Shown: positions 511 through 9,239 of the stretch, in pieces | How the letters are laid out: each line of letters opens with the position of its first letter | Numbering within the stretch: the stretch's first letter is position 1 | The notes under the pieces: model-generated | Databases searched by the model: none | The model's input: only the letters and a program-made list of their open reading frames with translations | Told to the model about the DNA's origin: nothing | Source: Desulfocapsa sp. | Lineage (GTDB): Bacteria > Desulfobacterota > Desulfobulbia > Desulfobulbales > Desulfocapsaceae | Assembly: GCA_013792135.1 (NCBI GenBank) | Contig: VMSP01000102.1 | Location: forward strand, 1 to 35,074 | Length of the DNA stretch: 35,074 bases | Reading direction: 5' to 3' | Program-made: the position numbers and the translations under genes

Positions 511-1515
511 ATGAACAAGAGAGTACAAGCAGCTTGGATGGCCTTAGGTATCACCGCCATAACGGCTCTGCCTGTTTTTGCCGCGGGCAACAGTAGTGCT
601 TCACCTGAGCCGGTCACAATAACTACAGGACAGGCCAAGGCTGAGATTATGCTTGGTATTGAGTCATGGTCAGGGGACAACACCTATCAGATAGGATATC
701 CTGTCCACTGGTTTGACGGAGTGGTGGAAAATGGCTATTTCCCTTTCAGTCAACTGGAATTCCCCCTCGATATCTACATGATTAGCGCCAAAGGTAATGC
801 AGAATTTCATAATATCTGGATGGTGTCCGCCTCTGTTAAAAAAGATATCTCCTCACCTGACGACCAGATGATTGACCAGGACTGGATTACTACAAGCAAT
901 CCTGGCCAACTCGACGTTTATTCCAACAGTGATATCAGCGAATTTGAAGGCTATGAATTTGATGTCAATGCCAAGTACAAATTTTTCCGTGGGGAAAACT
1001 GGTCATTGAACGCAGGGGTGGGCTACATCTACCAGAACTGGCAATATACCGCGAATCTTGTCCAACAATACTCGCCTTCTGGACAGACAGGGTATGACTA
1101 TGTCGGTGATGGTACCCCCGCTATCAATTACAAACTTGAATACAATATTCCCTATATCCAGATAGGCGGCAAGCTCAACCTGGACAAGCAATTCTCTGTG
1201 GAGGGTAATATCAGCTATTCTCCTCTGGTTGATGCTAAAAATGTTGACCAGCACCTGCTCCGGCAAAAGGTAAACACTGGTGACCTGGATGGTTCTTCAT
1301 GGATGTTCAACCTCAAAGGAAGGTATGACTTCAGCGAACACTGGTTTATGATCGCATCCTACGACTTCAAAGAAATGAAGACCGACGGAACAATGAGCGC
1401 GGAATTTTCCAACACCTACCTCTATATTTACGGAGTGATCCCCAACCATACGGTGTATGAGGAAATAGAGTCAACCCAGCATGCCATGGCCTTGAGCATG
1501 GGATATTCTTTCTAA
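511..1515 (+). CDS. Omptin-family outer-membrane aspartyl protease
   Basis: A 334-residue protein with a Sec signal peptide (about residues 1-25, ending in PVFAA) and a C-terminal aromatic residue in a beta-strand (MGYSF), as in outer-membrane barrels. It matches the omptin family (OmpT, Pla, PgtE) along its length. The segment MIDQDW at 121-125 with a following SNPG matches OmpT MVDQDWMDSSNPG, and the segment VDQH at 245-248 matches the OmpT DNDEH site. The four catalytic residues are therefore D122, D124, D246 and H248, with spacing close to that of OmpT. INYK and MPYI-like strands (INYKLEYNIPYIQI) are also shared. Omptins cleave peptides and proteins at basic residues on the cell surface and need lipopolysaccharide. 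A ribosome binding site (AGAGGAGAG) precedes the ATG. The gene is single, between IS remnants and a terminator. Substrate unknown. Confidence 0.88.
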   Translation: MNKRVQAAWMALGITAITALPVFAAGNSSASPEPVTITTGQAKAEIMLGIESWSGDNTYQIGYPVHWFDGVVENGYFPFSQLEFPLDIYMISAKGNAEFHNIWMVSASVKKDISSPDDQMIDQDWITTSNPGQLDVYSNSDISEFEGYEFDVNAKYKFFRGENWSLNAGVGYIYQNWQYTANLVQQYSPSGQTGYDYVGDGTPAINYKLEYNIPYIQIGGKLNLDKQFSVEGNISYSPLVDAKNVDQHLLRQKVNTGDLDGSSWMFNLKGRYDFSEHWFMIASYDFKEMKTDGTMSAEFSNTYLYIYGVIPNHTVYEEIESTQHAMALSMGYSF

Positions 1516-2497: not shown

Positions 2498-3340
2498 TCA
2501 AAACTCCAGGGTACCGTCAGGATTTTCAACAACCCCAACCACCACCAAGCCCGCCTTATCTGCCGCCTTTACCATAACCTCACGATCAAAAAGCAGAGAT
2601 TGACCAGCCTCCACTGCCAACACCGCAGCCTTGACGCTGGCTAGGCTTTCAACTGTTTTCAATCCGGTTGCAGGTAGATCAAAACGGAAATCCTGGGACG
2701 GTTTCCTGACCTTGACCACCACTGCCTTCTCCCTGGCCAGCCCTCCACCACGAAGAATGGTGGCGTCAGTTCCTTCGATGGCCTCTACCGCCAGTACTGA
2801 CAGATTTCTTACCACCACACACTGTCCGATATCTAGCTGACCTATGGCCCGAGCATTGCGCCAACCGAATTCAATATCGAGACGTTGTTCGCGACTTGGC
2901 TTCTTTTTGGTAAGCACTCCTCCGGGAAACAAGAGATGGCGCAAATATAACGTGGATTCCAGTACTTTAATATCCTCCCGTTCAAGTGCACTTGCCACTG
3001 CCCGAAGAATGGCGTCATCCTGCCTGGTATCAATCTTGTTCCAAAGAGTTAACCCCTTCAAGTCTGGGAAGACATCCTTAAACACCTGAGTTTTGGTAAT
3101 GGCGCCCAGAAAGACCGTCTCACCCACACCTTCTTCATGAAAAAACCTGATGATCTTCCCCAACTGCCCAAGCTTCACCCAGCAGACCACATCTGCAGCA
3201 GCAGCCACTTCCGGCAGGGTTTCCCCCTTATGGGCAACCACCGCCGCAATCCGACCAACTTCTTTCGCTGCCTTGATAAAAAGAAGTGGAAACTGACCAC
3301 TTCCGGCAATAACACCTATTTTTTCAGGATGAATATGCAT
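2498..3340 (-). CDS. lpxI: UDP-2,3-diacylglucosamine pyrophosphatase LpxI
   Basis: A 280-residue member of the LpxI (DUF1009) family, which hydrolyses UDP-2,3-diacylglucosamine to lipid X and UMP in the lipid A pathway of bacteria lacking LpxH. Visible family marks are the N-terminal GVIAGSGQFPLL Rossmann-like segment, the central DTRQDDAILRAV segment, and the C-terminal half with FDLPATGLKTVE and the final VVGVVENPDGTLEF. It starts 9 bases after lpxA, which supports the call and suggests co-transcription. The length is typical for the family. It acts in the cytoplasm or at the inner membrane face. Confidence 0.92.
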   Translation of the reverse strand: MHIHPEKIGVIAGSGQFPLLFIKAAKEVGRIAAVVAHKGETLPEVAAAADVVCWVKLGQLGKIIRFFHEEGVGETVFLGAITKTQVFKDVFPDLKGLTLWNKIDTRQDDAILRAVASALEREDIKVLESTLYLRHLLFPGGVLTKKKPSREQRLDIEFGWRNARAIGQLDIGQCVVVRNLSVLAVEAIEGTDATILRGGGLAREKAVVVKVRKPSQDFRFDLPATGLKTVESLASVKAAVLAVEAGQSLLFDREVMVKAADKAGLVVVGVVENPDGTLEF

Positions 3341-3349
3341 GGAGAAAAT

Positions 3350-4144
3350 CTAATCTTCAGTGCGTTTAGCCACACCACGCTTAGAGGTCTCAAGAAAATG
3401 CACCAGAGATTCCACCTCTGCACAATCAGGCAGCTCCTCACGTACCAGCGCCAGGGCATCTGCCTGCAACAGGTCAGGAGAACGGAAAAGAATACGAAAT
3501 GCCTGATCCAGCCTGCTGATAATCTCTTTGCTGAAACCATGCCGCCTGAGGCCAACCTTATTGATTCCAGAAACCCGCATCCGACTTCTAGTGCCGGTGA
3601 CAATCATAAAAGGGGCAACATCAAGACTGATTCCAGACATGCCACCGATATAGGCATATGAACCTATACGACAAAATTGATGAACCGCCACCAGACCACC
3701 GATGGATACATGTTCACTCACCTCAACATGACCAGCCAAGGTGGCCACATTGGCCATAATCACATGACTGGCGACATGACAATCATGGCCGATGTGACAA
3801 TAGGCCATGAACAGGTTATGATCACCAATGATTGTTTTGCCTCCACCCTTTGCGGTTCCGCGATGGATGGAGGTATATTCACGGATATTATTCTGATCAC
3901 CAATGATCAATTGCGTGGGTTCTCCGGCGTAGCCGAGATCCTGGGGCGGCGTACCAATGGAGGTGAACGAGCCGACCACATTTCCCGCACCAATGGTTGT
4001 CAGACCAGCTATAACGGCATGCGGTTCAATCCTGGTTCCAGCACCAATACGCACCCCTTTTTCTATAACGGTATAGGCCCCCACATGAACTGTGGAATCA
4101 AGCTCTGCTTTTTTATCAATAACTGCTGTTGGATGTATCAACAT
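3350..4144 (-). CDS. lpxA: UDP-N-acetylglucosamine O-acyltransferase LpxA
   Basis: A 264-residue left-handed beta-helix acyltransferase and first enzyme of lipid A synthesis, transferring a 3-hydroxyacyl chain from ACP to UDP-GlcNAc. Hexapeptide repeats run from the N-terminus (IHPTAVID, VGAYTVIE, IGAGTRIEPHAVI) to about residue 190. The catalytic histidine is H120 in the CHIGHDC segment, equivalent to E. coli H125, and the substrate-binding GGLVAVHQFCRIG segment follows. The C-terminal helical part has the NKVGLRRHGFS signature. It is the first gene of the lpxA-lpxI-nucleotidyltransferase run; the usual lpxD and fabZ neighbours are not present. Confidence 0.95.
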   Translation of the reverse strand: MLIHPTAVIDKKAELDSTVHVGAYTVIEKGVRIGAGTRIEPHAVIAGLTTIGAGNVVGSFTSIGTPPQDLGYAGEPTQLIIGDQNNIREYTSIHRGTAKGGGKTIIGDHNLFMAYCHIGHDCHVASHVIMANVATLAGHVEVSEHVSIGGLVAVHQFCRIGSYAYIGGMSGISLDVAPFMIVTGTRSRMRVSGINKVGLRRHGFSKEIISRLDQAFRILFRSPDLLQADALALVREELPDCAEVESLVHFLETSKRGVAKRTED

Positions 4145-4222: not shown

Positions 4223-4255
4223 AAAAATCAGAAATGCGGACAATACATTTCTGAT
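4223..4255 (-). terminator. Rho-independent terminator downstream of the MglA operon
   Basis: Read on the minus strand, ATCAGAAATG (4255-4246) and CATTTCTGAT (4236-4227) form a 10-bp stem with a 9-base loop, followed directly by a short T run (TTTTT including the stem base) and GG. It follows the 790-residue protein gene and precedes lpxA on the same strand. Confidence 0.6.
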
Positions 4256-4369: not shown

Positions 4370-6742
4370 TTACTCCTTAGAAAAAAGATCATCCAAATCA
4401 TCGACTATTTCAGAAGAATGGGCCTCTCTCCCTTCCTTTGCAAGCATGGCGGAAATTAAACCCTGCTGCCAGCGCAATACGTTGCAAGTCTCTTCAAAAA
4501 GTACCTGCTCACGTCGCCCATCAAGAGCACTTTGTCTGAGGCATACCAGTTCCAATTTGTCACAGAGTGATTGAAGCAGGGTCAAAGATTCAGCATCTGC
4601 TCCCCCACGATTTGTATCAATATATTGACCTACAGTGAGCAGAAGTTGGAGAAAAGTATTCTTTACATACTGGTTCTTCCACCCCTGCCGCAACCTGCTG
4701 GTCTCAGCAAAAAAAGAAGGAAAAGCAGTTTCATATTCTTTCAAAAGAATTGAGGCAACGCATTTCTGAAGCTCTGCAAGAGATTCTTGTTCCAACCTAT
4801 TCTCAGCCTCAGTTGCAATACTTCCAGTAATATCGGGAAGTTCATCAACCTCTACCTCGTCGCCAACAGGTTCAAAAACAACCTCAAGATCTTCACTCGT
4901 TACATCTGCAGGTATAGCAACACCGACACCTTCAAAAACAAGGTCAGAAGCCGCTGCCTCAATTTCCCTGATTTCTGCCACTGGCTCTAAAACGGGAACT
5001 TCCTGTTCCTCTACATCCGCTGGCGCTATCTCTTCTATCTCACCGGCACAAGGTGCCTCAGGGGAGAGCTCTGCTGAGATTAATTTTCCAGGGACATCAT
5101 CACTGACCTGAACGCTACTCTCCAGAGAAGCCTCCTCAATCTCTGCACCAAAAAAAGAATCAAGTCGATCTTCAAGATCAAACTCATCCTCATCAGAACC
5201 GCTGGTAAGTTCTGCTTCTCGAAAACCATATTCCTCATCAGTGAACATCAAGGCAGGAGCTACTTCCCCTTGATCACGGGGTAAAGCAGCTTCTTCGGAC
5301 TCATCATCCGCCTCTGTTTCCACATCAACACCAGGAATTACAGGTGCGGTCACAAATATTTCTTTAGTTGGTGGCTTTTCTACCAATGTCTCCTCGGTGA
5401 ACAGACCTTGACCACCTGCCTCGGCCAAAGCTGGCGCCAACTCTCCACTCTGGAGAGGTAGAGCCTTTTCATCGGAATCATCATCTGCCTCGGTCTCGAC
5501 ATTCACTCCTTCCAAGGCAATATCCGGCGCTGGACCTAACAACTCAAAGTCTTCTTCCTCACCGAACAGTTCGTCTAGTCTGGATTTCACCTCAGGGACT
5601 TCTGAGGCCGTAGAAGTCGTCTCTCCAACTACTTTCTGATCGACGAACACATCTTCTTCACCCAGAAAGTTTGCCAAACCTTTATCAATTCCACTCTTAA
5701 CGACTTCGGAATCGACACGAAAGCCATGGACATCAACAGGCATGTCAGCGAAGGCCGGTGTAAAGGCTCCTCTATGTTCCTCAGAGTCCTCTTCTTCAGC
5801 CACTTCCTTTTCTGCTGCAAGACGGGTGGATTCATCAGGAACCACCACTTCGGATGCAACTTTTGCAATTTCCGCTTTAAAGGCATTAAATTTCGTGACT
5901 TCAGCCAGAAGGATTTCCTTTTCCTGCTGTCTGGAGAGAACCTCATTATAAATTCTTTCCAATCCATTATAGAATGAATGTAAAAGCTTAAAGGCATTCA
6001 GATGGGCATTACTTTTGGTGGAACGAATATAATTACCAAGAGCGCCAATACCCTGCAGAAAAATCAACTTAGCTCTGCTTTCGCTGAAAATTTGTTCCAG
6101 CTTATTTACTTCATCACTTAGACGAACAAGTTCTTTATCACTAATCTCCCAATCTATACCCAATACAATCGCCTTCAAATTCGTTAAAACATTCTTTTGC
6201 CCTTGTGAAACAGGCAAAGGAACCTCAACCGCGCATGCGACGCTTTGAGATACCGAACCGACAGTTGCAATTTTCTTTTCTTTGGGAACAGATGGAGCTA
6301 TCTGGATCTTAAATTGATCAAATTTCTTTATATCCTGAAGTAATAACTTTTTTTGCTCTTCTTCACTCATAGTAGAAGACACTATTTTCTCAAGATCAGA
6401 ATAAAAAGTGAGCAGTAACTTTATGGCATTGGGATGGGAATTTGCTTTTTCACTAGAGATATATCGACCAATCTTCTCCAAGGCCTGAATATAAATCAGA
6501 TTGATTTTATTCCCCGCCCAGACATCTTTCAGATCCTGCAACTCTTCATTTAACTGTTGGAGAATATCATCGGTAATCTCCCAGTCAATTGACAGAATGA
6601 TCGTCTTGAGCTTGGCAATAGGTGCATCGGCATCACCAAGGGGCTCAAACAAATCTACATACTCCGTTGAGAACGATTCATTGTACTCATCCGCACCAAC
6701 GGTCAGGTCATCGTCATATTGTCGTCCAGTATGCTGTGCCAC
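4370..6742 (-). CDS. Large acidic protein with three helical repeats, MglA-operon partner
   Basis: A 790-residue soluble protein of unknown function; I recognise no named domain. A helical unit of about 108 residues occurs at about 42-149 and 186-293 (both with an IDWEI segment, then FYS/N-L-E near the end), and a third diverged copy lies at 653-767. Between copies 2 and 3 is a long, very acidic, probably disordered linker with a duplicated block (about 412-440 and 472-500, both VETEADD..., ..APAL). A short motif LDxxFGxE-like appears at about 387-393, 526-533 and at the C-terminus (LDDLFSKE). It has no signal peptide or membrane segment. It begins with GTG 12 bases after the MglA-type GTPase gene, so it is probably a partner or effector of that switch. 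That role is inferred from position only. Confidence 0.75.
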   Translation of the reverse strand: MAQHTGRQYDDDLTVGADEYNESFSTEYVDLFEPLGDADAPIAKLKTIILSIDWEITDDILQQLNEELQDLKDVWAGNKINLIYIQALEKIGRYISSEKANSHPNAIKLLLTFYSDLEKIVSSTMSEEEQKKLLLQDIKKFDQFKIQIAPSVPKEKKIATVGSVSQSVACAVEVPLPVSQGQKNVLTNLKAIVLGIDWEISDKELVRLSDEVNKLEQIFSESRAKLIFLQGIGALGNYIRSTKSNAHLNAFKLLHSFYNGLERIYNEVLSRQQEKEILLAEVTKFNAFKAEIAKVASEVVVPDESTRLAAEKEVAEEEDSEEHRGAFTPAFADMPVDVHGFRVDSEVVKSGIDKGLANFLGEEDVFVDQKVVGETTSTASEVPEVKSRLDELFGEEEDFELLGPAPDIALEGVNVETEADDDSDEKALPLQSGELAPALAEAGGQGLFTEETLVEKPPTKEIFVTAPVIPGVDVETEADDESEEAALPRDQGEVAPALMFTDEEYGFREAELTSGSDEDEFDLEDRLDSFFGAEIEEASLESSVQVSDDVPGKLISAELSPEAPCAGEIEEIAPADVEEQEVPVLEPVAEIREIEAAASDLVFEGVGVAIPADVTSEDLEVVFEPVGDEVEVDELPDITGSIATEAENRLEQESLAELQKCVASILLKEYETAFPSFFAETSRLRQGWKNQYVKNTFLQLLLTVGQYIDTNRGGADAESLTLLQSLCDKLELVCLRQSALDGRREQVLFEETCNVLRWQQGLISAMLAKEGREAHSSEIVDDLDDLFSKE

Positions 6743-6754
6743 CGTACATTCTCT

Positions 6755-7360
6755 CTAAAGTAATTTTTTTTGTATCGAGACAACAGTCGATGAAATAATC
6801 TTCTTCAACGTTGCGGCAACATTATATCCAGTAATTGCGCTGGCTTCAAAATAAGGCACCTGCAATCTACTATTGAGATCCTGCTGAAGAACAGAAATTG
6901 GCAACACAGGAATTCCATGATCTTTTAAATCCACTTTATTGTATTGCATGACCAACGGAATTTTAAAAATAGATTCCTTGTATGCTTGCAGATTTTCATG
7001 GAGCTGATTCAGTGAACGGATATTCTTTTCTCGCTGTTTCTCCATGGCGTCTGCGACAAAAACGATTCCGTCCACACCTTTCAGCACCAACTTTCTGGTC
7101 GCATTGTACTTAACCTGACCAGGTACGGTATAAAGCTGTATTTTAATATCATACCCTTTAATCTGTCCCATATGAAAGGGAAGAAAATCAAAGAACAAAG
7201 TCCGATCGCCATGAGTCTTCAAACTCACCATTTCCGATTGGATCTGTTCCCTGAATTTACGATTGATATACTCAAGGTTTGTTGTTTTTCCGCAACGACC
7301 AGGTCCATAATAAACAATTTTGACCTGGACTACCTTATCTTTTAAGTTGATAAAACTCAA
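6755..7360 (-). CDS. mglA: MglA-type small Ras-like GTPase
   Basis: A 201-residue prokaryotic Ras-like GTPase. The P-loop is GPGRCGKT (19-26), a DRTLFFDFLP switch region lies at about 52-61, TVPGQ (78-82) replaces the usual Asp-containing G3 motif as in MglA, and NKVD (141-144) is the guanine-specificity motif. The start is TTG at 7360: the resulting MSFIN beginning matches MglA proteins and a GGGGGTGG tract lies just upstream. MglA with a roadblock GAP (MglB) sets cell polarity and controls motility in Myxococcus; the same pair occurs widely in non-gliding Desulfobacterota. The upstream neighbour is a roadblock protein and the downstream one the acidic repeat protein. The exact cellular output here is unknown. 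Confidence 0.88.
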   Translation of the reverse strand: MSFINLKDKVVQVKIVYYGPGRCGKTTNLEYINRKFREQIQSEMVSLKTHGDRTLFFDFLPFHMGQIKGYDIKIQLYTVPGQVKYNATRKLVLKGVDGIVFVADAMEKQREKNIRSLNQLHENLQAYKESIFKIPLVMQYNKVDLKDHGIPVLPISVLQQDLNSRLQVPYFEASAITGYNVAATLKKIISSTVVSIQKKLL

Positions 7361-7449
7361 CCTGCCACCCCCAAGCTTTTATTTCAGTCAAAACACATGA
7401 CTACTAACCAATCTTAATTCAATAACAAAGGTACGTCTCAAGGGTATCC

Positions 7450-7851
7450 CTATTCCTGCCTGTCCCAAACCTTCTTGATCTGATCTATGGCCTCAACGAC
7501 ATTCAACCTGAGGAATCCCAAAGAGATATCCCTTCCGAACATGGTTATCAATAAAAGCTCATCATCAATTTTACTAAAATGAATATTCGAATCCTGCCCC
7601 TTATGAAAGAGAAGTGAGAATTCAGTTTCACCAACTAATTTTGCCATGGCATCCACGGTCGCAAAATTACCTGCGGCCAGGGCAGCAAAGGAATAAATAT
7701 CATATTTACTCTTCGAATTATCTTTAACCGTGATAATATTTCCCGCCATATCAATGATAATGGCACAATCAACGCCGAGCTTTATCAATTTCTGGGTTAA
7801 AATTTCTTCAATTGCTTCCAGCTGTTCCTGACTTACAATACCATAATTCAT
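7450..7851 (-). CDS. Roadblock/LC7-domain protein (MglB-like)
   Basis: A 133-residue single-domain protein of the roadblock/LC7 fold, which binds and often activates the GTPase activity of MglA-type proteins. Visible marks are a first helix with LEAIEEIL, the strand CAIIIDMAGNIITV at about 29-42, a second helix with FAALAAGNFATVDAMAKLVGE, and a C-terminal strand-helix with SLGFLRLNVVEAI. The start ATG has a strong AAAGAGG site. It is the first gene of the operon with the GTPase and the large acidic protein. I use MglB-like, not mglB, because the family also holds related GAPs with other partners. Confidence 0.85.
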   Translation of the reverse strand: MNYGIVSQEQLEAIEEILTQKLIKLGVDCAIIIDMAGNIITVKDNSKSKYDIYSFAALAAGNFATVDAMAKLVGETEFSLLFHKGQDSNIHFSKIDDELLLITMFGRDISLGFLRLNVVEAIDQIKKVWDRQE

Positions 7852-8369
7852 TCTCTACCTCTTTATTCTTGATTGAAGCCCGTTGAAATCGGAACCTGCT
7901 TTTTCTCAATCCACACCTTTAAACAATATGGACTTTTTTTACGAAACAGCCAAAAGCGAACACTCACTGCCGATTTTGGGATCGGTTATTACTTTAACAA
8001 CGTATGTGATATACTTTGCGGCTCTCTCTTTGTGAAGAGAGAAAACATTGTTACATACATTATTTGTCAATATACGACAGTTTTTTTTTGATATGAAGCT
8101 ATTTTTTTAGTTTATTGTTAAAAATCGTCTCATTTTATTACTCAGACCATAAAATAACACCACAAAAGATCTTCTGTTAATGCATCTTTAAAGACATATC
8201 GATAATGGAAAAGAACTGTACAATCCGTCAGACATCTGAAGCCTCATGCACATGAACCACATTAAACCGATCCAGACGACCCGTGGGGTCAAACAATATC
8301 CAAAGCTTATCCTACTTTAGAAGGATAAAGCAAACTTTTCTCTTACATTTTCGACATTGCGACAAAAAA
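7852..8369. other. AT-rich divergent intergenic region
   Basis: About 500 bases between the roadblock operon (minus) and tatD (plus). It holds the candidate minus-strand promoter and inverted repeat described separately and a long T run near 8081-8089. I see no coding frame with protein-like character apart from a possible GTG-started extension of tatD from 8283. Confidence 0.5.
8008..8042 (-). promoter_or_regulatory. Candidate promoter with overlapping inverted repeat for the roadblock-MglA operon
   Basis: On the minus strand, TTCACA (8036-8031), a 17-base spacer and TATATC (8013-8008) fit a sigma-70 promoter. An 8-bp perfect inverted repeat (TCTCTCTT 8023-8030, AAGAGAGA 8035-8042) covers the -35 box and could be an operator. 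The leader to the roadblock ATG at 7851 would be about 150 bases. Promoter call by eye only. Confidence 0.35.
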
Positions 8370-9239
8370 ATGACATCCGCCAAGAACAGGCATGGAAAAA
8401 TTTCCGTAAAAATAGAACCAGCCCAACTTCCCCATCTTTCTGAGGGCACCTTTCTGATCGACAGCCATTGTCATCTTGACATGGATGCCTACCAAGATGA
8501 CCTAGACACCCTTCTTCAACAAGCATATCAAAACCATATTCGTACTATAATCAGTGTTGGCATTGACGAAAAAAGCTCTCGCCAGGCAATCTCTTTAGCC
8601 GCAAAATACAACATGGTCAAGGCAACCATTGGTGTGCATCCCCATGATGTAGCTCATATCCTGCCTCATACCTTAGACACCTTAGCAAATCTCGCAGAAG
8701 AGAACAGCAAACACATTGTAGGCTATGGCGAGATTGGGCTTGACTATGTCAAAAACTACACCGCCCCCGATATACAACGCACCCATTTTCGCTCACAATT
8801 ATCCCTGGCTAAAGAATTGAAGCTCCCTGTCATTGTCCATGACCGTGAGGCCCACGAGGATACTTTACGCATCCTCATGGAAGCAGCTCCTTACGAATAT
8901 GGCGGTGTCATGCATTGTTTTTCAGGTAACATGACCTTGGCCAAACAGGTACTGGATCTTGGTTTCCACATCTCGATTCCAGGGGTCGTTACCTTCAAAA
9001 ATGCCGCAGACCTCCAGGAGGTAGCAAAACAGACACCTCTGATGTCGCTGCTTGTCGAGACAGATGGCCCTTTCCTGTCCCCTGTCCCTCGGCGCGGCAA
9101 ACGTAACGAGCCCACATTCCTACTCTATACCGCCCAGATGATCGCAGACTTACGTGACATCCCGATCAATGAAGTTGCAAGACAGACCAGCGCCAACGCC
9201 ATGAAACTTTTCCGACTTCCTGGAACCTTGACGACGTGA
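8370..9239 (+). CDS. TatD-family metal-dependent deoxyribonuclease
   Basis: A TatD/YcfH-type TIM-barrel hydrolase. The metal-binding set is complete: DSHCHLD near the N-terminus, the Glu in GYGEIGLDY, His in PVIVHDREAHEDT, His in GVMHCFSG and Asp in VETDGPFLSP. Members act as 3'-5' nucleases on DNA or in D-aminoacyl-tRNA cleanup. I start at ATG 8370; a GTG at 8283 would add 29 residues that do not look like the family, and neither start has a clear ribosome binding site. The stop overlaps the next gene by 4 bases (GTGA), which suggests translational coupling. Family call is firm; choice between tatD and ycfH is not made. Confidence 0.9.
   Translation: MTSAKNRHGKISVKIEPAQLPHLSEGTFLIDSHCHLDMDAYQDDLDTLLQQAYQNHIRTIISVGIDEKSSRQAISLAAKYNMVKATIGVHPHDVAHILPHTLDTLANLAEENSKHIVGYGEIGLDYVKNYTAPDIQRTHFRSQLSLAKELKLPVIVHDREAHEDTLRILMEAAPYEYGGVMHCFSGNMTLAKQVLDLGFHISIPGVVTFKNAADLQEVAKQTPLMSLLVETDGPFLSPVPRRGKRNEPTFLLYTAQMIADLRDIPINEVARQTSANAMKLFRLPGTLTT

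Follow-up and report, generated by a model that had tools for sequence, protein, structure and literature searches.

This locus raises the question of what is done by the product of a long gene that lies just behind the gene of an MglA-type GTPase, with the gene of a roadblock protein further upstream. Knowledge of MglA partners comes mostly from M. xanthus and Bdellovibrio. Among prokaryotic small GTPases MglA is called the best characterised in the portions of PMC4316618 consulted, and the excerpts of PMC11580455 used here report that direct SgmX-PilB or SgmX-PilM contacts were undetected in M. xanthus. We use EFF as a label for the 790-residue multidomain protein linked to MglA, and the window denotes the whole stretch of 35,074 nucleotides that was analysed.

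The roadblock, mglA and EFF genes

Three co-directional minus-strand genes were found at 4370–7851 of the window, and their features were as follows.

7450..7851, minus strand: roadblock (MglB-like) gene, open reading frame of 133 residues
6755..7360, minus strand: mglA, 201 residues, TTG start
4370..6742, minus strand: EFF gene, 790 residues, GTG start
6644..6718, minus strand: EFF N-terminal conserved segment, residues 9–33 (YDDDLT...VDLFE)
6296..6619, minus strand: EFF helical repeat 1, residues 42–149 (repeat self-alignment; five-helix model)
5864..6187, minus strand: EFF helical repeat 2, residues 186–293 (repeat self-alignment; profile match at G000:C128:5864-6199)
4787..5863, minus strand: EFF acidic linker, residues 294–652 (residue composition)
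5564..5578, minus strand: EFF short motif LDELF, residues 389–393 (context SRLDELFGEEE)
5150..5164, minus strand: EFF short motif LDSFF, residues 527–531 (context DRLDSFFGAEI)
4442..4786, minus strand: EFF diverged helical repeat 3, residues 653–767 (self-alignment; profile match at G000:C128:4487-4789)
4382..4396, minus strand: EFF C-terminal short motif LDDLF, residues 783–787

The open reading frames confirmed the layout given by a sequence-only reading of this DNA, with the roadblock gene upstream and 12 bases (6743–6754) separating the mglA stop codon from the first codon of EFF. The three genes may be expressed as an operon. The next gene after EFF is lpxA, with no ATPase gene there, and a terminator-like site after EFF (4227–4255) was at chance level, three such sites being found in the stretch against 3.0 expected.

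The window MglA matched Pfam Ras (E 2.8e-12). Group 1 MglAs are defined by a TVPGQ G3 motif and an intrinsic arginine adjoining the G2 threonine, according to the sections consulted of Wuichet and Sogaard-Andersen (2014, PMC4316618). Both features, TVPGQ (T78-Q82) and R53-T54, were invariant in 24 of 24 rows of our MglA alignment (A2), the window included, and the window MglA is assigned to Group 1 by these motifs and not by a tree. The roadblock protein scored 22.8 bits against Robl_LC7 (cut-off 23) when searched as a protein and 23.2 bits, above the cut-off, in a six-frame search of the genome; it also matched the NCBIfam MglB model (E 1.1e-14) at 54.8 bits, below that model's 200-bit cut-off. 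With a Robl_LC7 domain and a gene adjoining mglA, it can be regarded as a putative MglB. The window genome held exactly one Robl_LC7 match and one MglA match (E 0.001), both at this locus. PADLOC defence models returned 0 families for each of the three proteins (E 0.01).

Architecture of EFF and the affinities of its domain

Results of the self-alignments bore out three copies of a helical domain, the third of them diverged. Repeats 1 and 2 aligned gap-free over 108 residues with a score of 247 (shuffled mean 29.6, sd 5.3), and repeat 3 scored 65 against each of them (shuffled means 27.5 and 27.2; sd 4.9 and 4.7); 0 of 500 shuffles matched any of the three observed scores. The A1 profile, for which copies of repeats 1 and 2 alone were used, recovered the window's repeat 3 at E 1.2e-11 in a one-genome search. 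The linker was likewise as acidic as had been claimed, with 103 D/E and 19 K/R in its 359 residues, and it is probably disordered. Two other parts of the sequence-only reading need revision. It had called the protein giant, but 790 residues is unremarkable in a family of which one member, L157, reaches 2549. It had also described a triple repeat, which stands for the window but is not general in the family: 16 of the 42 named loci encode a single-domain EFF, and lineages beyond the window's have one EFF domain and a distinct C-terminal domain. The triple repeat is a local elaboration, a feature of one lineage.

A short motif accompanies the domain. The pattern I/L/V/M-D/E-x-L/F/M-F, which was picked after inspecting the sequences, preceded the domain in 52 of 64 relatives outside the window's lineage (mean of 0.9 in shuffles that ignore relatedness). 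The same motif was enriched in EFF linkers; the count for the window's lineage covered 68 sequences, partial copies of the same proteins among them. Two N-terminal patterns, also chosen post hoc after viewing, were counted on the 46 distinct N-termini of that lineage: a DLT-type element occurred within the first 60 residues in all 46, and a VDLF-like element in 43. In a structural model of the 207-residue protein of L053 (mean pLDDT 67), the motif-bearing blocks were at ~38–51, too uncertain for motif-domain contact.

The repeats of EFF matched no Pfam or NCBIfam family at its cut-off, and phmmer against PDB sequences gave a single match at E 0.13. Among Pfam matches up to E 1 the window EFF had neither a TPR family nor a Response_reg (receiver) domain, and no CheW or kinase domain was matched. 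The structure prediction for a single repeat, which the sequence-only reading had proposed, was run on repeat 1 and gave a five-helix model (pLDDT 90.2, pTM 0.83). Its fold appears to resemble most closely that of CheA P1, which is a signalling domain.

Support from sequence for a kinship of the EFF domain with CheA P1 is marginal. Eight weak or odd matches to a wide profile (L209–L216) comprised six that are CheA-like by their H-box, one (L215) without an open frame, and L216, which we take from its sequence to be MazG-like; L214, from the window's genome, was the only one of the eight with independent Pfam support as CheA. Of eight CheA pieces compared with the EFF profile, the six CheA-like P1 pieces among the matches listed scored 20.7–27.2 bits, and the MazG-like protein scored similarly (E 5.4e-5). 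Because these matches are mixed, they are no proof of CheA kinship. Comparison of A1 by hhalign with nine HPt domains of the window's genome gave a probability of 0.2, and profile searches of PDB sequences returned no CheA, the best matches of the wide profile being designed helical repeats. A1 contained no invariant or nearly invariant histidine that could serve as phospho-acceptor: its His-rich column (66%) falls in the turn between helices 3 and 4, and in the profile alignment the CheA histidine stood opposite non-His positions of the EFF domain. Judged by these alignments, the EFF domain lacks the phospho-histidine (H-box) of CheA P1. It further differs from that HPt domain in coming without a kinase match and in being present in two to three copies in the window's lineage.

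The C-terminal domains of relatives were compared separately. CheW was matched by 2 of 24, and one full-length relative (L151) was above the CheW cut-off. CheW kinship of these domains in general was rejected, hhalign against six CheW domains giving a probability of 14 and sub-alignments 1.9 to 21.5. Between two groups of relatives these domains did match each other (hhalign probability 97.6–97.9).

Linkage of EFF to mglA across genomes

Of the 42 named loci, 40 have the order roadblock-mglA-EFF, and the link of EFF to MglA is much wider than one locus. In a class sample of 197 genomes, the EFF domain was present in 132 of 132 genomes with a close MglA (E up to 1e-100) and in 11 of the 65 others. 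In a phylum sample of 394 genomes, 93 of 115 close MglA genes were followed on their own strand by an EFF domain no more than 2.5 kb away; in this count each protein's additional repeats are left out and MglA rows are taken only to E 6e-76, the phylum cut-off. The remaining 22 had no EFF that near, and 10 of them lie in EFF-less genomes. Here close means close, by E-value, to the MglAs that adjoin EFF, since the model (A2) was built from those. The sequence-only reading had suggested an effector or scaffold dedicated to a polarity switch; the genome-context scan supported EFF as a partner dedicated to MglA and roadblock, and revealed a link broader than the single sequence had shown.

Many of the linked domains were diverged, with 10–25% identity to the first row of the wide profile (A8). 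The E-values of such members come from a profile that they had already joined; the first profile run on the diverged loci gave only 9e-3 for L163 and L165 and no score for L164. A8 includes some of the loci that it finds, and the phylum sample has many loci outside it. The wide-profile count of 113 phylum genomes retains matches above ~E 1e-6, including CheA-like and MazG-like proteins. Five class genomes (G084, G085, G139, G170 and G004; 86–100% complete) kept the domain with no MglA at E 1e-30, and the match in G004 sits at a contig edge.

ATPase genes were also found behind EFF. Among loci with a more distant type of MglA (L163–L165, L168, L169, L171–L180; several end at contig edges), a homologue of the PilB-type ATPase of L168 came next after EFF in 15 of the 15 with room. 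The two of these ATPases that were scanned (L168, L169) had TPR, MshEN and T2SSE domains. In L217 and L218, which have no EFF, the gene directly after mglA encodes a homologue of the L168 ATPase. Of the six scanned ATPases that adjoin EFF or mglA, four (L139, L168, L169 and L217; not L140 or L150) have TPR matches of their own. In a set of 20 loci an ATPase followed EFF in six (L139, L140, L143, L150, L152, L153) and L136 had a partial match to the TPR region; in the remaining 13 no ATPase was seen after EFF in the DNA examined, some of which is bounded by contig ends.

EFF as a probable adaptor between MglA and a pilus-type motor

We favour, with moderate confidence, the view that EFF is an adaptor (effector) dedicated to a polarity module of roadblock and a Group-1-type MglA, and that the output of this module is most likely a type IV pilus-type ATPase. 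EFF probably acts as an adaptor because it co-travels with the switch and because, in many relatives, its gene has the switch on one side and a gene for a pilus-type motor on the other. Roadblock, as GAP, and MglA would form the GTP switch; EFF may use its five-helix domains, the repeated L/V/I-D-x-L/F-F motif or both to recognise MglA, and would relay the state of the switch to the output, most likely a type IV pilus-type extension ATPase that is assembled or recruited to the pole. The EFF of the window's lineage has a pair of domains near the N-terminus, a third at the C-terminus and a long, acidic, motif-bearing linker in between; this would make it multivalent, a form that would suit a pole-forming scaffold. 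The sequence-only reading had seen in this bacterium no reason to glide. That remark was not supported: the window genome has nine CheW-domain matches and encodes four ATPases of the MshEN-T2SSE type along with two T2SSE proteins that are shorter and PilT-like in length, so pili and chemosensing are possible. The output in the window's own bacterium may be a pilus.

No description of EFF was found in the open-licence literature searched, in line with the earlier view that its architecture is new, and the main text of PMC4316618, in the parts consulted, describes Group 1 neighbourhoods that vary widely, with occasional PATAN-domain proteins, and names no EFF-like conserved partner for Group 1 MglA. 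Known systems offer partial likenesses, here drawn from excerpts of the papers cited. MglA-GTP of M. xanthus acts on the PilB extension ATPase via the TPR protein SgmX (PMC7519303, PMC11580455). SgmX thus connects MglA in function with the pilus extension ATPase, and in several lineages the EFF gene has a comparable place, with mglA before it and an ATPase gene after it, but SgmX consists of 14 TPRs whereas EFF has a different, five-helix domain and no TPR match. SopA, the partner of SgmX, also has two domains and an unstructured middle and aids the MglA-pilus pathway; its homologues are reported to be confined to the Myxococcales and not encoded in an operon (PMC11580455), and the two are likened by description only.

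Other roles for EFF would place it elsewhere in the module. It could act upstream of MglA, as a polar localiser or exchange factor with a role like that of RomR/RomX in M. xanthus, and not as an effector. RomR, which partners MglA and MglB, has a signalling domain that is folded and a conserved, helical, Glu-rich pole-targeting end (RomR-C), joined by a long linker that is variable and not conserved, as described in the parts of PMC3441718 consulted, and this modular build resembles the folded domains and long acidic linker of EFF. RomR has a receiver domain, however, for which EFF gave no match, and in several lineages the position of EFF between mglA and an ATPase gene suggests a role in output; we regard an upstream role as unlikely, while taking it seriously. 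Somewhat less probable still is that EFF is a chemosensory-derived input adaptor through which receptors or receiver proteins would be coupled with MglA, a role with which the CheA-P1-like domain without phospho-histidine and the few CheW-like ends would be consistent.

A role for EFF primarily as partner of roadblock, as co-GAP or GAP scaffold, would account for L057 and L061, where EFF follows roadblock and mglA is elsewhere in the genome. It is at odds with L156, where no roadblock or MglA was found next to EFF, and with L140 and L143, where EFF is present with no match to the roadblock profile (A3) within 9 kb, and we consider it improbable. Linkage by itself is no proof of joint function, and the three genes could be mere neighbours. 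We think this very improbable, because a linkage kept across the phylum by domains so diverged is hard to explain without joint function.

Taken as an adaptor of MglA, EFF offers a testable answer to how this GTPase reaches pili, because it is found with every close MglA of the class sample and has a defined domain, a repeated motif and, elsewhere, an adjoining ATPase. FliM and CheZ hold CheY through short motifs. A doubtful but far-reaching extension is that a family derived from a chemotaxis kinase, now without its chemistry, links a Ras-like polarity switch to a pilus ATPase in a large part of the phylum, its parts being the CheA-P1-like domain without histidine, the FliM/CheZ-like short motifs and, in few relatives, a CheW-like end. 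If so, EFF would connect chemosensory arrays directly and physically with a small GTPase and a pilus motor, and the window's lineage would have amplified this bridge into a multivalent pole scaffold. Cultured carriers of EFF are Desulfoprunum benzoelyticum, Desulforhopalus singaporensis and Desulfosarcina widdelii.

EFF and its switch in the window

The gene EFF encodes the 790-residue protein beside the polarity GTPase MglA, and forms a triad with mglA and roadblock, the regulator gene of the switch. The genes of this region were as follows.

7450–7851, minus strand, roadblock
6755–7360, minus strand, mglA
4370–6742, minus strand, EFF (790 codons)
3350–4144, lpxA, downstream of EFF
2498–3340, lpxI, after lpxA
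1572–2501, nucleotidyltransferase gene, after lpxI
8283–9239, opposite in direction to the triad, TatD-type gene, upstream of roadblock

Spacing was 89 bases between roadblock and mglA and 12 bases between mglA and EFF, and a 225-base gap separated EFF from lpxA. The sequence-only reading had described three repeats and an acidic linker in EFF; both were as described and far above shuffled expectation, and its observation at this locus was real. An omptin-family outer membrane protein was encoded near the lipid A genes (511–1515, plus strand; Pfam Omptin, E = 1.1e-16).

The window MglA carried TVPGQ at residues 78–82 and Arg53-Thr54, both invariant across 24 aligned sequences, and these features fit the Group 1 definition (PMC4316618). 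Judged by its sequence, the protein is an ordinary, motility-type MglA. The genome (4.2 Mb, listed completeness 99.99%) gave a single match each to Robl_LC7 and to MglA, and both lie within the window; thus, no switch of this kind other than the one adjoining EFF was detected in the cell.

Linkage of EFF to MglA

We concluded that the main point is the EFF family, not the triple repeat. EFF is a widespread, tightly linked MglA partner, and no description of it was found in the open-licence papers searched, supplements aside. Relatives occurred in 41 of 58 related genomes in a whole-protein search, and scanning of named genomes confirmed 42 loci. Roadblock lay upstream of EFF on the same strand in all 42, with mglA between them in 40 (L035 was scored as mglA-present although masked bases interrupt its mglA). 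In the two exceptions, roadblock was followed directly by EFF and mglA (57% identical) was elsewhere in the genome. In both of these loci, L057 (369–1947, minus strand) and L061 (497–2053, minus strand), genes resembling FHA-protein and PP2C-phosphatase genes in sequence lay upstream on the other strand. The order at locus L122 was mglA-roadblock-EFF. A contig titled Chlorobiaceae (locus L031) held the triad in multi-domain form, with 65% identity in the best segment, and was probably wrongly binned. At L137, a 203-aa EFF-like protein (3390–4001, minus strand) had no adjacent mglA and adjoined a gene presumably of FHA type, judging by likeness; the same genome has a second EFF within a triad (L136).

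The class sample comprised 197 genomes, each at least 85% complete. A1, the domain profile from repeats 1 and 2, matched in 143 and the MglA profile (A2) in 161, which we divided by score into 132 with close and 29 with more distant MglA. The EFF domain was present in 132/132 genomes with close MglA versus 11/65 without it (Fisher p = 8e-38, which is overstated because class genomes are related). Six of these 11 carriers had distant MglA, and five (G004, G084, G085, G139, G170) had no match to A2. Genomes G084 and G085 retained the domain with no MglA found at E 1e-30, and EFF of G085 (L156) had no adjoining roadblock match. A diverged EFF domain lay downstream of distant mglA in 16/16 fetched loci (L163–L165, L168–L180), representing 13 of the 29 distant-MglA genomes plus 3 second copies in close-MglA genomes. 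An iterated profile detected it at these loci with E-values of 2e-10 to 4e-18, flattered because members had already joined that profile; A1 alone scored L163 and L165 at 9e-3 and gave L164 no score.

Across 394 phylum genomes, each at least 90% complete, the wide domain profile (A8) matched in 113 and MglA in 212. Close MglA was defined as 115 places at E up to 6e-76, spread over 103 genomes, and at 93 of these places the EFF domain followed on the same strand within 2.5 kb. The other 22 fell in EFF-less genomes (10), in genomes whose second mglA has EFF downstream (8), or in genomes with EFF elsewhere (4: G243, G301, G325, G556), which in G243, G301 and G325 was about 5–7 kb downstream of mglA on the same strand. 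Per genome, the domain matched in 94/103 with close MglA versus 19/291 of the others. Genomes with only weaker MglA matches gave a domain match in 9/109, all at E 4.8e-6 or worse, a level at which A8 also picked up CheA-like and MazG-like proteins. Thus, the EFF family follows one branch of MglA.

Domain architecture and a short motif

At least two domains were present at 26 of the 42 named loci (L026–L050, L065) and one at 16 (L051–L064, L066, L067), Desulfosarcina among them. One-domain proteins consisted of a short motif, the domain and a C-terminal helix, and measured 202–249 aa in 15/16 cases (L063, 348 aa). In the window's lineage, EFF had a pair of N-terminal domains followed by a long linker and, in most cases, a third domain, reaching 2549 aa. 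The 2549-aa protein (L157, 5209–12858, plus strand, genome G109) has two N-terminal domains, and listed EFF open frames in its genus, g49, ran from 1,426 to 2,644 aa. Beside distant MglA and in some other lineages, the motif and domain were followed by a variable linker and then a distinct C-terminal domain; these C-terminal domains matched across groups (hhalign probability 97.6–97.9).

Outside the window's lineage, 52/64 distinct proteins carried the motif [ILVM][DE]x[LFM]F in the stretch of up to 150 residues that precedes the domain (500 shuffles: mean 0.9, maximum 4). Within that lineage, 27 linkers contained it 55 times (300 shuffles: mean 5.0, maximum 12). These counts serve as description, because the sequences had been viewed before the pattern was set and because the proteins are related to one another. 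Window EFF carried it at residues 389, 527 and 783.

Position relative to the switch and possible output

Our first choice, to which we give an even chance, is that EFF acts after the MglA switch. EFF may instead act before the switch, or may form a bridge to chemosensory proteins. The FliM N-terminus and CheZ C-terminus bind CheY. The EFF motif resembles both ends in E. coli (ILSQAEIDALLNG for FliM and SQDQVDDLLDSLGF for CheZ, K-12 records), a likeness that offers a lead only. One relative, L151, matched CheW over the Pfam cut-off (27.4 versus 23.5 bits), and CheW matches appeared in 2/24 C-terminal domains of EFF relatives at E up to 1. Profile comparison of these domains with CheW failed; therefore, a CheW-like end is shown in only a minority of relatives.

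For action after the switch, gene order provides a parallel. In M. xanthus, SgmX is recruited by MglA-GTP and PilB placement needs SgmX (PMC7519303, PMC11580455). EFF adjoins an ATPase gene in several lineages, and the parallel suggests that in this phylum EFF connects MglA with a pilus-type ATPase. The gene after EFF encoded a homologue of the L168 ATPase in all 15 distant-MglA loci with room to show it (several loci end at contig ends); the two scanned, L168 and L169, carry TPR, MshEN and T2SSE. An ATPase followed EFF in 6/20 loci of a further fetched set. The ATPase has TPR, MshEN and T2SSE at L139, MshEN and T2SSE at L140, and T2SSE only at L150. At L139, L140 and L143 (genomes G301, G243, G325), a T2SSE ATPase came after EFF, and mglA lay on the same strand some 5–7 kb upstream. 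In two genomes without an EFF match (G420, G383; loci L217, L218), mglA was followed directly by a T2SSE-type ATPase (that of L217 was scanned), with no roadblock match within the 7–8 kb examined. Genes near EFF included DUF4388 and HAMP/Cache genes at L140 and a response regulator with DUF4388 at L168.

No ATPase gene adjoined EFF in the window. Elsewhere, its genome encodes four MshEN-T2SSE ATPases and two short T2SSE proteins, from which we infer that a pilus output is possible in this bacterium. One of the four, a PilB/GspE-type ATPase on contig C19 (L192, 838–3087, plus strand), combines MshEN and T2SSE with a C-terminal cyclic-nucleotide-binding domain.
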